Assembly: GCF_003015185.1 (NCBI RefSeq)
Contig: NZ_CP027860.1
Span: 930,001-994,000, forward strand
Origin: Ahniella affigens
GTDB taxonomy: Bacteria > Pseudomonadota > Gammaproteobacteria > Xanthomonadales > Ahniellaceae
Length of the DNA: 64,000 nt
Reading direction: 5' to 3'
The notes under the pieces were generated by a model. That model did no database searches and was not told the DNA's origin. It saw only the letters and a program-made list of their open reading frames with translations. Below are positions 11,421 to 56,724 of the stretch, one piece after another. The position numbers and the translations under genes are program-made. Every line of letters starts with the position of its first letter. Position 1 is the stretch's first letter.

Positions 11421-11480
11421 AAATCAGTCCATCTTGGACTTTCAGACCCGCATTGACCCTGACCTTGTTCAGATTCTCCT
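11421..11480 (-). repeat. Shortened copy of the five-hairpin dispersed element
   Basis: Read on the minus strand, this segment has TCTGAACAAG-GTCAG followed at once by TCAATGCGGGTCTGAAAG and TCCAAGATGGACTGATT. The same blocks form the first and last hairpins of the cassette at 41653-41816; the last block shares 33 of 34 bases. The middle hairpins of that cassette are absent here. The final stem AGTCCA/TGGACT can still form. Confidence 0.7.
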
Positions 11481-11962
11481 TGGATGTCGCGTCGCCGGGG
11501 TAGTGTGACCCGCGATCGGACGCTCGCCGCGTGATCAGTGCGGTGCAAAAAAGATTTTCGTAATCCTTCACGAAACGTTTGCAAGGGATCGCCCCCGCAT
11601 TGATTTCCGCCATTGCAATCGGTCTGAGGACTGATTTGCAACGCATTTCGCCGTGTCCGAGGCGCTACATAAGCGCTCTGCCGCGCCGCAAAAAGACTTT
11701 CAGAATTTGTGTCGCTATAAAACCGGGCGCTCGGCGTTTGGGTGGCAGTGCTTGGTCTTCGTACTGGCCTCTGCCCGAGCGTCAGCGACAGCGATAGAAG
11801 CTGTCCGCCCGAATCGCACCACACGTGCTTCTGCGTCGCGTGACGCAATGAGCCATGGTTGCGCAATCGGGTAGCGAAACAATAAGCGGCACCAACACAA
11901 AGGGCGTTGCCGAACGTATCGGCAGCGATAACGAGAATCGTACTTGGAGGAGTTCGTTGCAC

Positions 11963-39164: not shown

Positions 39165-39989
39165 ATGACCGACGCCCATTCCCAGGCACCCATGCGTACG
39201 TTGCCTGATCAGACCATGGTGATCGGGCTGCCGGCCTGGCAGGACAACTATCTGTGGCTGCTCATCCGGGCTGGGAAAGCCGTCGCCGTCGATCCGGGCG
39301 ATGCCGACCGCGTCAGCGCCGAACTGGATCGTCGCGGCCTCAGTTTGGAGGCCATCCTGCTGACGCATCACCACCCGGATCATATCGGCGGTGTTGCGGC
39401 ACTCGTCGACCGTTACCGTTGTCCCGTTTTTGGGGCGGATGATGAACGGATTCCGGCGACCCATCGCGTGCGGGAGGGCGATCAACTCCGTATTCGGGGC
39501 ATGTTGAGCCCTTTTGAGGTTTGGGAAGTACCGGGGCACACCCGCACGCACTTGGCTTACCGGTTGGGTGACTGGGTGTTTGCCGGCGATACGATTTTTG
39601 CCGGTGGCTGCGGACGCGTCTTCGAAGGCGAGCCCGCAGCGCTCTATCGCAGCCTGATGCGCATCGCGGCGCTGCCGCCCGAAACGGTGTTGTTTCCGGC
39701 GCATGAGTACACGCTCGACAACCTGCGATTTGCGTTGGCGCTTGAGCCGGATTCTGAACTGGTGAACACACGCTATCGCGCGACCCGCGGGATGCGCGCC
39801 GAGCGACTGGCAACGGTGCCCGTCACAGTGGCCCAGGAACGCGCCAGCAATCCGTTTCTGCGGGTGGCGGATCCGGGCTTGCAGGCAGCGGCCAGCGCCT
39901 GCCTGCAGCAGACACTGAACGACCCGGAGTCGGTTTTTGTCGCTATTCGGGGCTGGAAGAACCGCTACGTGGTGCGTCATGATGCCTGA
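39165..39989 (+). CDS. gloB: Hydroxyacylglutathione hydrolase (glyoxalase II)
   Basis: Hydrolyses S-lactoylglutathione in methylglyoxal detoxification. Metallo-beta-lactamase fold with THHHPDHIGG, VPGHTRTHLAY and FAGDTIFAGGCGRVFEG plus the C-terminal HEYTLDNLRFA and NPFLR substrate-binding segments. The ATG at 39165 gives 274 residues; ATGs at 39192 or 39216 would also give family-like starts and no ribosome site decides between them. Divergent from the methyltransferase gene. Confidence 0.95.
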   Translation: MTDAHSQAPMRTLPDQTMVIGLPAWQDNYLWLLIRAGKAVAVDPGDADRVSAELDRRGLSLEAILLTHHHPDHIGGVAALVDRYRCPVFGADDERIPATHRVREGDQLRIRGMLSPFEVWEVPGHTRTHLAYRLGDWVFAGDTIFAGGCGRVFEGEPAALYRSLMRIAALPPETVLFPAHEYTLDNLRFALALEPDSELVNTRYRATRGMRAERLATVPVTVAQERASNPFLRVADPGLQAAASACLQQTLNDPESVFVAIRGWKNRYVVRHDA

Positions 39990-41406
39990 GTATTTGATCT
40001 GCAACGGTGCGCGCTCGGCGCGCCGTGATGTCACCCGTGTCCTGTTCGCGTTCGCGCTGATCATGCTGGGTGCCTGTGCCGCGCCGGTGGCGCGTCCTGA
40101 TATCGCAGCGACGCAGGACTCACCCAGTGACACGGCGCCGCCATTGCCGGAGCGAGACCACGGGGCCACCACATCCGTTGTGAACGACGAGACGTCGCCG
40201 GCCGACATGGCGGCCGTCGCCATTCATCAGGACAGCCTGGAGCCCGACCCGTCCGCACCGTTGCCACCCCCTGATTTCTGGAACTCGGTTCGGCAGGAAC
40301 TGGTGTTCACCCGCTGCAGCAATGAGGATGCGCTAAGCAGTCGGTGGACCCGCAAATACGCTGGATATCCGGCCCGCTTCCAAGAAACGCTGAATCAGAT
40401 TTCGCCGCTGATGCAATACGTCGCACGTGAGCTCCGCGCTGCGAATCTGCCAATCGACTTCATCTTCCTGCCCATTGTCGAAAGCACGTACCACCCGCAT
40501 CGTAGCCGCGGCGATTGGCCGGCCGGGATCTGGCAATTGATGCCGCAGACGGCGCGCGGTTTCGGCGCACCCATGAAGGCGCAATACGACGGCCGCCTGG
40601 ACTTTGCGCAATCTACCTTCGCGGCAATGAAACTGCTGAACTACCTGAGCGTGCAGTTCGACCAGGACTGGAAACTGGTGAACATGGCATTCAATGCTGG
40701 CGAGTACCGGGTCAAGCGTGCACTCAAAGGCCCCAAAGGCACGCTGCTGCCCGAACCGAAAGGCCTGAGTCCGATCACAATTGAGCACTACGCCAAACTG
40801 CGGGCGCTGGGTTGTCTGATTGACCAACCTGAACGGTTCAACTTGACGTTGCCGCCACTGGACCCTGGGCGCGAGTTGGCGTCGGTCAACCTGCCCGAAG
40901 CCTGGCCACTCGATTTTCTCGCGCATTTGCTGAAGATGGATGTGACCGCGCTGCACAAGCTCAACCCGGGACTATATGGCACGCACACGCCGGGGTTTCC
41001 GGAGTATCGACTGCTGTTGCCGAAGTTCGCTGAGGATGATTTGCTGGCCGCCTTGGCGCCGCTGTCTCCGACCTACAGCGCACGCTGGCAGCAAGTCCAA
41101 CTGGCGGATGCCGACGCGCGCGCAAAAGCCGCTTTGGAAGCAGGCCTGAGTCAGGAGGTCTATGCGCGGGTCAATTCGGACGGCAGCGCGAAAATCTGGC
41201 TGCCAACCGGTAGCGGGCAGCCCAAAGTGTTGGCCAGCGATGGCGCCAGCGCAGCCGAACGCCATCGCGTCCGTGCCGGCGACACGCTTTGGGGCATCGC
41301 CCGGCATTATCGCGTCAAGGTGCAAAGCCTGATCGAGTGGAACGGCCTCGGGAAGAAAGCGCTAATCAAGCCTGGGCAATGGCTGCGCCTCCGGGCGAGA
41401 GACTAG
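39979..41406 (+). CDS. mltD: Membrane-bound lytic murein transglycosylase D, LysM-containing
   Basis: About 475 residues. N-terminal helix with lipobox (IMLGACAAP) and a long Pro/Asp-rich linker, an SLT domain with LPIVESTYHPH (catalytic Glu), GIWQLMPQTARGFG and NMAFNAGEYRV, and one C-terminal LysM repeat (HRVRAGDTLWGIARHYRVKVQSLIEWNGL). Cleaves peptidoglycan glycan strands to anhydro-muropeptides. Two adjacent ATGs (39979 and 39982) are possible; both overlap the end of gloB, a conserved gloB-mltD pairing. Confidence 0.95.
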   Translation: MMPEYLICNGARSARRDVTRVLFAFALIMLGACAAPVARPDIAATQDSPSDTAPPLPERDHGATTSVVNDETSPADMAAVAIHQDSLEPDPSAPLPPPDFWNSVRQELVFTRCSNEDALSSRWTRKYAGYPARFQETLNQISPLMQYVARELRAANLPIDFIFLPIVESTYHPHRSRGDWPAGIWQLMPQTARGFGAPMKAQYDGRLDFAQSTFAAMKLLNYLSVQFDQDWKLVNMAFNAGEYRVKRALKGPKGTLLPEPKGLSPITIEHYAKLRALGCLIDQPERFNLTLPPLDPGRELASVNLPEAWPLDFLAHLLKMDVTALHKLNPGLYGTHTPGFPEYRLLLPKFAEDDLLAALAPLSPTYSARWQQVQLADADARAKAALEAGLSQEVYARVNSDGSAKIWLPTGSGQPKVLASDGASAAERHRVRAGDTLWGIARHYRVKVQSLIEWNGLGKKALIKPGQWLRLRARD

Positions 41407-41652: not shown

Positions 41653-41816
41653 CACTAGGGAGCCTCTGAACAAGTTCAGAGGCGATGCGCGCCAGGGATG
41701 GCCCGCCCAGAATCGAGCACGCAAGTGCTTGATTCTGGGCATTGAGTCCGGACATGTGCCGGACTCAATGCGGGTCTGAAAGTCCAGGATGGACTGATTC
41801 AGACCGTCCCTAGGTG
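41653..41816 (+). repeat. Five-hairpin cassette with short terminal inverted repeats
   Basis: Ends CACTAGGGA (41653-41661) and TCCCTAG-GTG (41807-41816) can pair. Between them, in order: A, GCCTCTGAAC/GTTCAGAGGC (41662-41683); B, GCCA/TGGC (41691-41702); C, 16-bp arms GCCCAGAATCGAGCAC/GTGCTTGATTCTGGGC around a GCAA loop (41705-41740); D, ATTGAGTCCGG/CCGGACTCAAT (41741-41769); E, GGTCTGAA-AGTCCA/TGGACT-GA-TTCAGACC (41773-41805). It ends 40 bp before the PD40 gene start. Could be a structured RNA, a miniature element or an unusual terminator; a shortened copy exists at 11421-11480. Confidence 0.85.
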
Positions 41817-41856
41817 TGACCACATCAGCGTTAGGCGAACAGTGAGAGTCATAAAC

Positions 41857-44325
41857 ATGGAACAGAAGTCGCTTTGGTTCGCACTGGCAACAACGATTCT
41901 CGGCATGCCACATGCGGCGGCGGATACGCCTTACGCATTGGTTTCGGCGCCCGCGTTTGCCGATCTCGCCACCAGCACGGGCGAAAGCAGAAATCCGCGT
42001 AGCGACGATACGATGCTGAACGTGGTGTTTGAGTCGACGGCCGGAAATCTGGTCAGTGGCGATAGCAATCGGCTCCGCGATGTTTTTCTTTGGAACGCCA
42101 GCGGCCTGATGCTGGTGTCTACTGCCGGGGGGACGCCGGCCAATGGCGATAGCTCAGAACCAGACATCAGTCACGACGGTGAGTGGATCGTGTTTACGTC
42201 GGCAGCGGACAACTTGGTTCCAGGCGACCAGAACGGAGTGTCTGACTTGTTCGTCTTTCGCCAAAGCACGGGTGCGCTGCAGCGCCTGACACCGCCCGGC
42301 GGCGAAGCGAACGGCCCGAGCTATGGTGCGCGCATGAGCGCCGGTGGTCAGCGCATTGTATTTTTGTCAGCGGCCAGCAACTGGGTGGCTGGCGATCAGA
42401 ACGGACTCGACGATGCGTTCCTCTACGATCTCACTAACCAATCGGTGACGCGCGTATCGGTCTCTGATTCAGGATCGGAAGTGACCGATGCGCCGCCGAG
42501 TCATGTGAACATCAGTGCTGACGGGATCTGCGTTTCGATCGAATCGCTTTCGGCCCAGTATGTCAGTGGCGATACCAACTTCGGCACCGACTACTTCATT
42601 CGCAACACGCAGACCGGCGTGACGACGCGCATGAGTGTGGGCAATGCCGGCGAGCAACTGGTGAGTGTTGCCTCGGCCAACCATCAATTGCGAGATTGCC
42701 AGTCGCTCATATTTTACGCCTTCCCAGACAGCGCAATTCCCGGCTTCGAAGTAGGCGGCTACTATTTTCGCCAGATAAGTGGGACGACCCGCTTGCCATT
42801 GATCGGGTTTGAAGGCACACCGGGCGTAGCGCCAGTGTTGTCCCCCAACCGCACGATTCTGGCTGCGGTGGTGCCAAACGCTGCCAGTGGCGGACCACAG
42901 CAACAACGCTACAACTTGAACTCTTGGAATTTGCAGTTCTCGACGACCGCGTTTGGCACGCCAGCAGCGGTCTCGGGCGATGGTGCGAGCGTCATTTCGG
43001 TAACCGAGCGGCCGGTTTCGAGCGCGGATCGGAACGCGCTGAGCGATGTGATGCTGCGGGTTGAAGTACTGGGCCAGCAGGAGTGGCTCAGTCGACCCAT
43101 GGACAGCCAACCACCCCGTCTCGCCGCCAACGGCAATAGTGGGGTTGGGGTCGGCATCTACAGCAACACCAACAACTTGCGGCGGCGCCACCACGCCATC
43201 AGTGGCGATGGTCGCTACGTGCTGTTCAGCTCTCTGGCGTCCAATCTCGTGCCGAACGACACCAATCAGGTTGAAGACGTGTTCTTGCGCGATCGGCAAT
43301 TGGGCCAGACCACGCGCATCAGCTTGACCAACCAGGGCGAGCAGACAACCTTGCCGTCGGCCGCGACCGATTTGTCGGCCGATGGGCGCTATGCATTGTT
43401 CGAGTCGTGCGAACAGCTCAGCACGGTCACCCTGGAGTCCGTTTGTGATCTGTACGCCCGCCGTCTTGACGTCAGTGGCATGGTGCTCGACCGAATCAAT
43501 GTCAGTTCGGAAGGGGATCCCGCTGACCTGGGTGGCAATCCGGGTACCGGTCATTGGGGCCGGATTTCAGGCGACGGCCGGTTTGTTGCGTTCATGTCTG
43601 AGGCCCGAAATCTGGTGCCGGGACAAGATACGCGTGCACCGCGTGTGTATTTGCGGGACCGCGATTTTGTGACGACGAGCTTCCTTGGTCGCGGATCCCG
43701 GCCTGCGATCAGCCGCGATGGGCGGTTCGTCGTTTGGGTCGAAAGCGGCTTTCAGAGCCTCGGCTTTTATGACCGAGTCAGCAACGCCATCACTAGTCTG
43801 CCGATCCGCTCAGGCGGCGGCAGCGTGGATGATGGGTTGGTGGATTGGCCGACGATTTCCGATTCCGGGCGCTACATTGCCTACATGTCTGACAGCAACC
43901 AATTGGTGCCGGAAGACAACGACAGCAGTAACGATGTGTTTGTGTTTGATCGTGTGACCGCGACCAATACGCTGGTCAGTCGTGAAGACGGAATTTTGCA
44001 GGGTATTCAGGGCGGCACGGTCAGCGATATCTCGGGTGATGGTCTGACAGTTGCCTACATCACCGACAATGGCTTGACCGATCCCAAGATGGCGGGGGTA
44101 TTGGTTGACTGGCAAACCGGGATGCGGCGATGGTTCGCTGGGCCAGACGTCGTGCGTCTGAATCACGATTTCATCGCGCGCCCGCGCATCAGTGCCGATG
44201 GCAACAGCTTGGTGTTTGGCGTTGACAACCTGGATGCTGACCAGATTGATCTCACGGGCGATCTGTACGATACCTATGTCACTCCGGCTGGGGTGGACCG
44301 CGTGTTCATCAACGGGTTTGAATAG
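41857..44325 (+). CDS. Secreted PD40/WD40-like beta-propeller protein
   Basis: 822 residues. Signal peptide (1-22, ...PHAAA), then many repeats of the TolB-like PD40 kind: ISHDGEWIVFTSAADNLVPGDQNGVSDLFVF, MSAGGQRIVFLSAASNWVAGDQNGLDDAFLY, ISGDGRYVLFSSLASNLVPNDTNQVEDVFLRD, ISGDGRFVAFMS, and others, with the recurring NLVPxDxNxxxDxF unit. The C-terminus ends VFINGFE, a short tail that may be a sorting or processing signal (inference). No catalytic motif. The five-hairpin cassette lies directly upstream. Confidence 0.85.
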   Translation: MEQKSLWFALATTILGMPHAAADTPYALVSAPAFADLATSTGESRNPRSDDTMLNVVFESTAGNLVSGDSNRLRDVFLWNASGLMLVSTAGGTPANGDSSEPDISHDGEWIVFTSAADNLVPGDQNGVSDLFVFRQSTGALQRLTPPGGEANGPSYGARMSAGGQRIVFLSAASNWVAGDQNGLDDAFLYDLTNQSVTRVSVSDSGSEVTDAPPSHVNISADGICVSIESLSAQYVSGDTNFGTDYFIRNTQTGVTTRMSVGNAGEQLVSVASANHQLRDCQSLIFYAFPDSAIPGFEVGGYYFRQISGTTRLPLIGFEGTPGVAPVLSPNRTILAAVVPNAASGGPQQQRYNLNSWNLQFSTTAFGTPAAVSGDGASVISVTERPVSSADRNALSDVMLRVEVLGQQEWLSRPMDSQPPRLAANGNSGVGVGIYSNTNNLRRRHHAISGDGRYVLFSSLASNLVPNDTNQVEDVFLRDRQLGQTTRISLTNQGEQTTLPSAATDLSADGRYALFESCEQLSTVTLESVCDLYARRLDVSGMVLDRINVSSEGDPADLGGNPGTGHWGRISGDGRFVAFMSEARNLVPGQDTRAPRVYLRDRDFVTTSFLGRGSRPAISRDGRFVVWVESGFQSLGFYDRVSNAITSLPIRSGGGSVDDGLVDWPTISDSGRYIAYMSDSNQLVPEDNDSSNDVFVFDRVTATNTLVSREDGILQGIQGGTVSDISGDGLTVAYITDNGLTDPKMAGVLVDWQTGMRRWFAGPDVVRLNHDFIARPRISADGNSLVFGVDNLDADQIDLTGDLYDTYVTPAGVDRVFINGFE

Positions 44326-56702: not shown

Positions 56703-56724
56703 GACTCTGAGCCAGTTCAGAGTC
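56703..56724 (+). terminator. Hairpin after guaA, possible terminator
   Basis: GACTCTGA-GCCAGT-TCAGAGTC forms an 8-bp stem 8 bp past the guaA stop. It resembles hairpin A of the 41.7-kb cassette (CTCTGA..GTTCAGAG). A weaker ATCCG...CGGAT pair follows. No long T run. Confidence 0.5.

Follow-up and report, generated by a model that had tools for sequence, protein, structure and literature searches.

An IS5-type miniature element of Ahniella affigens with a conserved five-hairpin core and a candidate CsrA/RsmA-type pair of GGA loops

The window analysed here is a 64,000-nt stretch of Ahniella affigens contig NZ_CP027860.1, from a genome of 6.12 Mb, and all coordinates are positions within it. 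One of its intergenic regions holds a 151-bp miniature inverted-repeat transposable element (MITE) of the IS5 type, at 41659–41809 on the + strand, which is made up of five hairpins, A to E. Upstream, an open reading frame (ORF) for a transglycosylase/LysM protein ends at 41406; downstream, the gene of a PD40 β-propeller protein (41842–44325, + strand) begins 32 nt from the element if its start is GTG 41842, or 47 nt if it is ATG 41857. The segment 41653–41816 is thus free of genes, as the initial annotation of this sequence had claimed. RNAfold predicts a closing stem enclosing five consecutive hairpins, with a minimum free energy of −106.8 kcal/mol (z = −11.7; 0 of 200 shuffled sequences equally stable), and the five hairpins and the GCAA loop of hairpin C that had been read from the sequence are both present. 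The stem sizes proposed at that time are approximately right, although the lengths differ slightly (for example, 14 pairs in hairpin C and 13 in hairpin D). Pairing of the ends, also proposed, does occur in the fold as the closing stem but had been over-read: the CTAG tetranucleotides at 41655–41658 and 41810–41813 are a target-site duplication (TSD), so this stem contributes only GGA/TCC to the element itself.

The hairpins, all given for the + strand, adjoin or overlap slightly. Hairpin A (41662–41683), defined by RNAfold and by the alignment of own-genome copies, has as its outer arm the left terminal inverted repeat (TIR) GGAGCCTCTGAACAAGT (41659–41675, + strand). Hairpin B (41687–41706) carries the hexaloop AGGGAU (41694–41699), of the form ANGGAN, a GGA loop of the CsrA/RsmA type; its stem is weakened by one mismatch in the window copy, which reads GCGCGCC where nearly all other aligned copies read GCGGGCC. 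Hairpins C (41705–41740) and D (41739–41771) correspond to inverted repeats I2 and I3 in an inverted-repeat scan of the segment. The two outermost pairs of hairpin C compete with B and D, and loop comparison showed that its loop varies across genomes; hairpin D is supported by covariation and by two-sided changes among own-genome copies. Hairpin E (41772–41805) bears a second GGA loop, AGGAU (41786–41790), at 91 nt from that of hairpin B (GGA to GGA), and its outer arm doubles as the right TIR (41796–41809, − strand), which was placed by the alignment of copies and by the ends of the partner insertion sequence (IS).

A search of the own genome with the segment found at least 40 near-full-length copies including the window copy, the other 39 being 92–95% identical to it and lying on both strands, together with 5 further partial units in tandem arrays; the copy number is a lower bound, as scoring covered only 40 of the 282 initial candidates. 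Alignment of the copies places the boundaries at YTAR|GGAG...CTCC|YTAR. Ends were placed in 34 of the 37 own-genome loci tried, and because L026 and L039 represent a single array insertion, counted once, 33 insertions remained; their 4-bp flanks are exactly equal in 24, and in 14 of the 19 in which the left 4-mer is not self-complementary. A 4-bp YTAR target duplication is of the kind made by the IS5 family. The end motif, with up to two mismatches, occurs 303 times in the own genome, compared with 4 times for a reversed control.

Three own-genome elements of 1,223, 1,213 and 1,223 bp have the same ends (GGAGGGTCTGAACAAGTC, from which the left TIR of the window copy is two bases off) and are flanked by CTAA/CTAA, CTAG/CTAG and CTAG/CTAG, respectively. 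Two of them code for an identical 342-amino-acid transposase (NCBIfam transpos_IS5_4, E = 3.8e-97; Pfam DDE_Tnp_1 and DUF772 also match), and the transposase of the third is shortened. This partner IS was located through the TIR pattern, a search of the own genome for the Pfam DUF4096 (PF13340) transposase having given no match. Sharing its TIRs with a resident IS5-family element, duplicating a 4-bp YTAR target, and being short, dispersed, multicopy and devoid of a transposase gene, the segment is a non-autonomous IS5-type MITE. REP elements are recognized by a GTAG-type foot and a RAYT partner; the ends here read YTAR|GGAG and the partner is a DDE-type IS5 element. The core is not a remnant of the IS, because the longest matches between the two are at most 12 bp, the best of them at the ends. 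What sets the element apart from other IS5-family MITEs is this covarying core of non-IS origin, in which two GGA loops are nearly invariant and which MITEs with different ends have in common. No alignment longer than 250 bp was obtained between 16 and 18 loci of two related metagenome-assembled genomes (MAGs) compared for shared insertion sites, and therefore no empty-site proof.

Some own-genome copies have unusual forms. In four tandem arrays (L037–L040; G000:C1 near 1228200, 213700, 2430000 and 3008500), one hairpin A is followed by two or three almost identical BCDE units with a CAAATACT linker between them, and TIRs are present at the outer ends only; the units inside one array look homogenized. 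Three full copies are 175–176 bp long, with an insertion of 24 bases in the hairpin D loop region.

The element is carried by many genomes, so that a restriction to one genome, for which the initial annotation had suggested a check, does not apply. Matches were found by blastn in 12 of 61 genomes (own included). A covariance model, R1, built from 8 sequences, none of them from the own genome, detected this architecture in 69 of the 299 order-level genomes (E ≤ 1e-4) and in 48 of 369 genomes of the class (E ≤ 1e-6), and a second model, R2, built from 60 sequences, in 48 of 398 genomes of the phylum (E ≤ 1e-7); the three genome sets overlap and the genome of the window is in each. The window copy scores 115.3 bits with R2 (E = 2.5e-36), a score that is not independent, as this copy belongs to the 60 sequences from which R2 was built. 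At least 119 stretches match an exact pattern of hairpins B and D, and among the 80 matches listed the named carriers are Rhodanobacter thiooxydans, R. spathiphylli, Thermomonas haemolytica, Rehaibacterium terrae, Dyella subtropica and a Chromatiales MAG. Other genera carry the same five hairpins partly on other ends, for example CTAG|CAGGCTGTTGAGAAAC in G019 and G028; among the ends listed for this second type (GCAGGCTGTTGAGAAAC) in these two genomes, inspection by eye gave no IS-sized end pair. Plasmids queried by blastn with L231, the window element and L245, and phages and Escherichia coli genomes queried with L245, gave no match at E ≤ 1e-3.

The stems covary, answering the question of missing compensatory changes that had been raised with the structured-RNA proposal. 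In alignment A4 (60 copies from 58 genomes, three of them own-genome copies and five rows identical to R1 seeds), which was made by fitting to the model and is thereby biased towards the structure, standard pairs make up 93.8% of the cells, and two-sided changes are seen at 52 of the 54 pairs. Its covariation is 0.733, compared with 0.204 after shuffling (0 of 500 shuffles reach the observed value) and no more than 0.147 when partners are slid. Matches to R1 on the opposite strand score approximately 23–50 bits, a level that hairpins alone reach, whereas the 60 matches in A4 score 72–174 bits. At three loci with aligning flanks, the insertion has been inherited by two genomes (L097/L100, L089/L092 and L227/L235). 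L089/L092 and L227/L235 have two-sided stem changes; in L097/L100 the changes are one-sided, with pairing preserved through G-T. All three pairs retain both GGAs, and in two of them the copies have different bases in hairpin B at the N of ANGGA, a free position. Stem deviations among own-genome copies comprise 75 G-T and 21 A-C cells, and the model-fitted alignments A4 and A5 have 112 versus 44 and 64 versus 19, an excess of G-T that is expected if the GGA strand is the folding one. From these sequence comparisons, conservation of a structure on the GGA strand is very probable. The proposal of a structured RNA is accordingly borne out by compensatory changes that keep the fold across many genomes, and that of a miniature mobile element by the TIRs, TSDs and partner IS; although offered as alternatives, both are supported.

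Two of the five loops are nearly invariant. GGA lies strictly within the loop of hairpin B in 57 and of hairpin E in 57 of the 60 A4 copies, compared with 1, 2 and 2 copies for hairpins A, C and D, and in 23 (B) and 25 (E) of 28 further copies from the phylum set, compared with none for A, C and D. Both sets were retrieved by models containing GGA; in the same seeds, however, the loops of hairpins C and D have drifted. Together with its closing pair, the loop of hairpin B reads C-ANGGAN-G in 56 of 60 copies, with N nearly free (0.23 bits), and that of hairpin E reads AGGAN. When retrieval used only the B and D pattern, with no condition on E, all 117 distinct matches (many of them from two related MAGs) had a downstream hairpin of at least 7 pairs, and 107 of the 117 had GGA strictly in its loop. 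Own-genome retrieval by blastn (87 loci examined, yielding 62 full copies, 61 of them distinct) showed no change in 366 GGA cells, at a mean of 0.0437 deviations per column; with 139 distinct changes spread across 152 columns, the six GGA columns would all be spared with a probability of approximately 0.004. The GGA-to-GGA distance from B to E is 87–98 nt in the 69 of 88 copies in which both were placed by script, and the arrays A-(BCDE)n, with n = 2 or 3, contain four or six GGA loops. Outside recognized elements, 6 hairpins with an ANGGAN hexaloop were found in 1.78 Mb of both-strand sequence, compared with 0, 0, 3, 7 and 15 for five control loop patterns, so that this sequence shows no enrichment of isolated GGA hairpins.

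The RsmA consensus is given as ACARGGAUG with the core GGA (in passages of PMC3937308), and the CsrA motif as GGA in loops, generally paired for the homodimer (in passages of PMC4333381). Judged by sequence, hairpins B and E are a GGA-loop pair of this CsrA/RsmA motif type. The own genome codes for three CsrA homologues. In the class set, CsrA is present in 48 of 48 genomes with the element, and the element in 0 of 56 genomes lacking CsrA (Fisher's exact test, 3.4e-4); among good-quality genomes, the element occurs in 45 of 280 with CsrA and 0 of 34 without (p = 0.0074). CsrA is present in 46 of the 48 element genomes of the phylum set, the two exceptions being only 74% and 69% complete, and the good-quality genomes of this set carry the element in 30 of 171 CsrA-positive and 0 of 167 CsrA-negative cases. 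As a separate observation, the genomes G768, G543, G593 and G512 each have 7–9 CsrA homologues.

CsrA/RsmA is probably the ligand of hairpins B and E, and the best explanation as a whole, to which we assign a probability of roughly 0.6, would be an IS5-type MITE carrying a conserved CsrA/RsmA-binding RNA cassette. Transcription, probably through read-through from a neighbouring gene, would yield a five-hairpin RNA in which, to go by the motif, hairpins B and E may each occupy one face of a CsrA/RsmA dimer. Such an RNA could titrate CsrA as a sponge in the manner of CsrB/RsmZ, or recruit CsrA to its host transcript. The shared ends suggest that an IS5-type transposase moves copies in trans, so the genome would gain dispersed CsrA sites, which tandem arrays A-(BCDE)2–3 would multiply. 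The chances are about even that the elements constitute a transposable family of CsrA/RsmA-binding RNAs in Gammaproteobacteria and, beyond them, in other groups of the phylum, the core passing between different IS5-type ends. If CsrA binds, the transposon would scatter ready-made sites for a global regulator, a direct route to rewired or titrated Csr/Rsm networks; such a family would supply, in mobile form, either Csr sponge RNA or new CsrA sites in the transcripts of the host. It would also be a Lysobacterales candidate for the RsmB-type antagonist that, in passages of a 2014 paper (PMC3937308) predating RsmU (PMC7694677), is described as not identified in Xanthomonas genomes. The element also provides an RNA family lacking a threshold match in Rfam 15, with clear and testable loop positions.

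Several results weigh against a CsrA-binding RNA cassette. The orthologous elements are 0.928, 0.897 and 0.954 identical, compared with 0.95/0.84, 0.95/0.90 and 0.94/0.97 for the adjacent 300 bp, so that conservation of the element does not consistently exceed that of its flanks. Counted as distinct events, the asymmetry between G-T and A-C is weak (31 versus 18, p = 0.085; 9 versus 3 for those in at least two copies, p = 0.15; 22 versus 15 for singletons), and hairpin template-switching could also create compensatory changes. An exact ACARGGAUG is found in 8 copies of the set of 60 and in none of the set of 28, and phylogeny confounds both tables of CsrA co-occurrence. Between 41400 and 41900, neither a promoter pattern, sought as the sigma-70 consensus and in the window copy, nor a terminator pattern was found. 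An RNA of importance to the host might be expected to show an orientation bias, and none is seen: co-directional contexts among 86 copies are 24 sense and 25 antisense (by crude gene calls), and for 30 own-genome copies the 5′ gene is on the same strand in 14 and the opposite strand in 12, and the 3′ gene in 13 and 14. Nor is the gain to a transposon from CsrA binding evident. Over all contexts of the 86 copies, the 5′ gene is on the same strand in 48 and on the opposite strand in 35, because convergent sites (24) exceed divergent ones (9), a pattern like that of elements excluded from promoters. Neither set supports a general orientation or 5′-leader rule; location in a 5′ leader, initially held probable, is true of the position of the window copy, but copies elsewhere lie in both orientations.

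The same contexts bear on the possibility that the fold is functional as RNA for some other ligand, or in transcript protection, processing or insulation, as has been suggested for repeats such as REP, BOX or Correia, with the GGA loops serving another protein or tertiary contacts. The scarcity of divergent sites fits this explanation, as do the three orthologously retained copies, which appear to be sense-oriented between co-directional ORFs (Pfam supports both neighbours at L089 and one at each other pair). We consider it unlikely, as C-ANGGAN-G is the CsrA pattern and the other loops are free. Equally improbable in our view is that the hairpins act as single-stranded DNA, in a cruciform or on the lagging strand, and are recognized in this form by a host factor or by the transposase, with GGA as a DNA loop required for movement such that only copies keeping it spread. 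Unbiased orientation is what would be expected if transcripts were irrelevant, and constraint is visible among similar copies of one genome, as if required in cis; however, no hairpin requirement is known for IS5-family DDE transposases, the core is no part of the IS and is found with different ends, the CsrA motif is matched by the loop, and the element is absent from every good-quality genome lacking CsrA. Least probable is that the fold is not selected and that template-switching, to which DNA palindromes are prone, corrects one arm from the other and so produces the compensatory changes by mutation, which would suit the clustering of some two-sided changes in adjacent pairs (L089/L092, hairpins C and E) but leaves unexplained both the CsrA link and the retention of GGA in the B and E loops only, while the other loops drift.

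The suggestion that no described RNA family is involved agrees with Rfam 15: cmscan of the window at gathering thresholds returned no family, and 20 loci of the class and phylum sets gave none at E ≤ 0.01. Scanning six loci at E ≤ 1 gave sub-threshold matches to gyrA RNA (RF01740) at the element in three relatives (37.1, 32.6 and 23.5 bits; gathering threshold 45), a match of mir-7386 to hairpin C of L049 (E = 0.49) and, elsewhere in these loci, SAM and sX9 in L052 and isrG in L001; a repeat with alignments on three of these loci gave, in addition, a BTH_s1 match on the opposite strand (E = 0.88). Identity with gyrA RNA is not supported, the three relatives being below the gathering threshold and the window copy having no match. 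It is the D–E part of these relatives that resembles gyrA RNA, listed for Pseudomonas in a table of PMC2864571; the consensus loop there is CaaGA, that of the element CAGGA, and the window copy precedes a PD40 gene.

Like the antagonist small RNAs of the CsrB/RsmX/Y/Z type, the element has several GGA motifs in hairpin loops, multiplied in its tandem arrays, but it has two GGA hairpins per unit, is mobile and multicopy, and lacks a promoter or terminator pattern of its own (window copy, sigma-70 consensus) as well as an Rfam match. The Rfam scans of the window element and of its relatives gave no match to known Csr RNA models, nor to TwoAYGGAY RNA (RF01731). Xanthomonas, the host of RsmU, belongs to the same bacterial order. 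RsmU is likewise an RsmA-binding RNA with GGA motifs, and a link to transposons is absent from the text of PMC7694677. TwoAYGGAY RNA, proposed to bind CsrA in passages of PMC4333381, shares with hairpin B its AYGGAY hairpin loops, whereas the element has an AGGAN loop in hairpin E, five hairpins and transposon ends. RNAs from small or dormant mobile elements are also represented by QMITE1 and QMITE2 of Coxiella burnetii (PMC5896051) and the IS200 5′tnpA RNA (PMC12594629), which differ from the element in size, ends and fold; the QMITE paper does not mention CsrA, and the authors of the 5′tnpA paper raise CsrA titration via GGA sites as a possibility. Within open-licence papers, with ISfinder outside the scope, the only literature joining CsrA with MITEs was the Rfam 12.0 paper, and strings of the element sequence had no match there.

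A related copy at 11.4 kb, which had been cited in favour of mobility, exists as a relic (11425–11490, − strand) with A-like and E-like parts, but it is decayed and internally deleted and is not among the R2 matches at E ≤ 1. A weak R2 match on the + strand at 39803–39947, within coding sequence (14.1 bits, E = 0.0036), is probably due to chance, and a lone hairpin at 56705–56722 (CTCTGAGCCAGTTCAGAG) resembles hairpin A. Outside the window, the copy at L052 in G056 is flanked by the SAM riboswitch match (65.2 bits, 257–396, + strand) and by the near-threshold match to the sX9 small RNA (2913–2989, + strand). The flanks of L066 and L060 in G019 contain another repeat with a GAGCGCTGCGCGCTC palindrome, in intergenic regions next to ORFs judged by eye to be groES-like and bioD-like. 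At L056 (G040:C31, approximately 1411–1616), a different long inverted-repeat element surrounds a hairpin with an AGGGAU loop like that of hairpin B, and is possibly another mobile carrier of the GGA loop.
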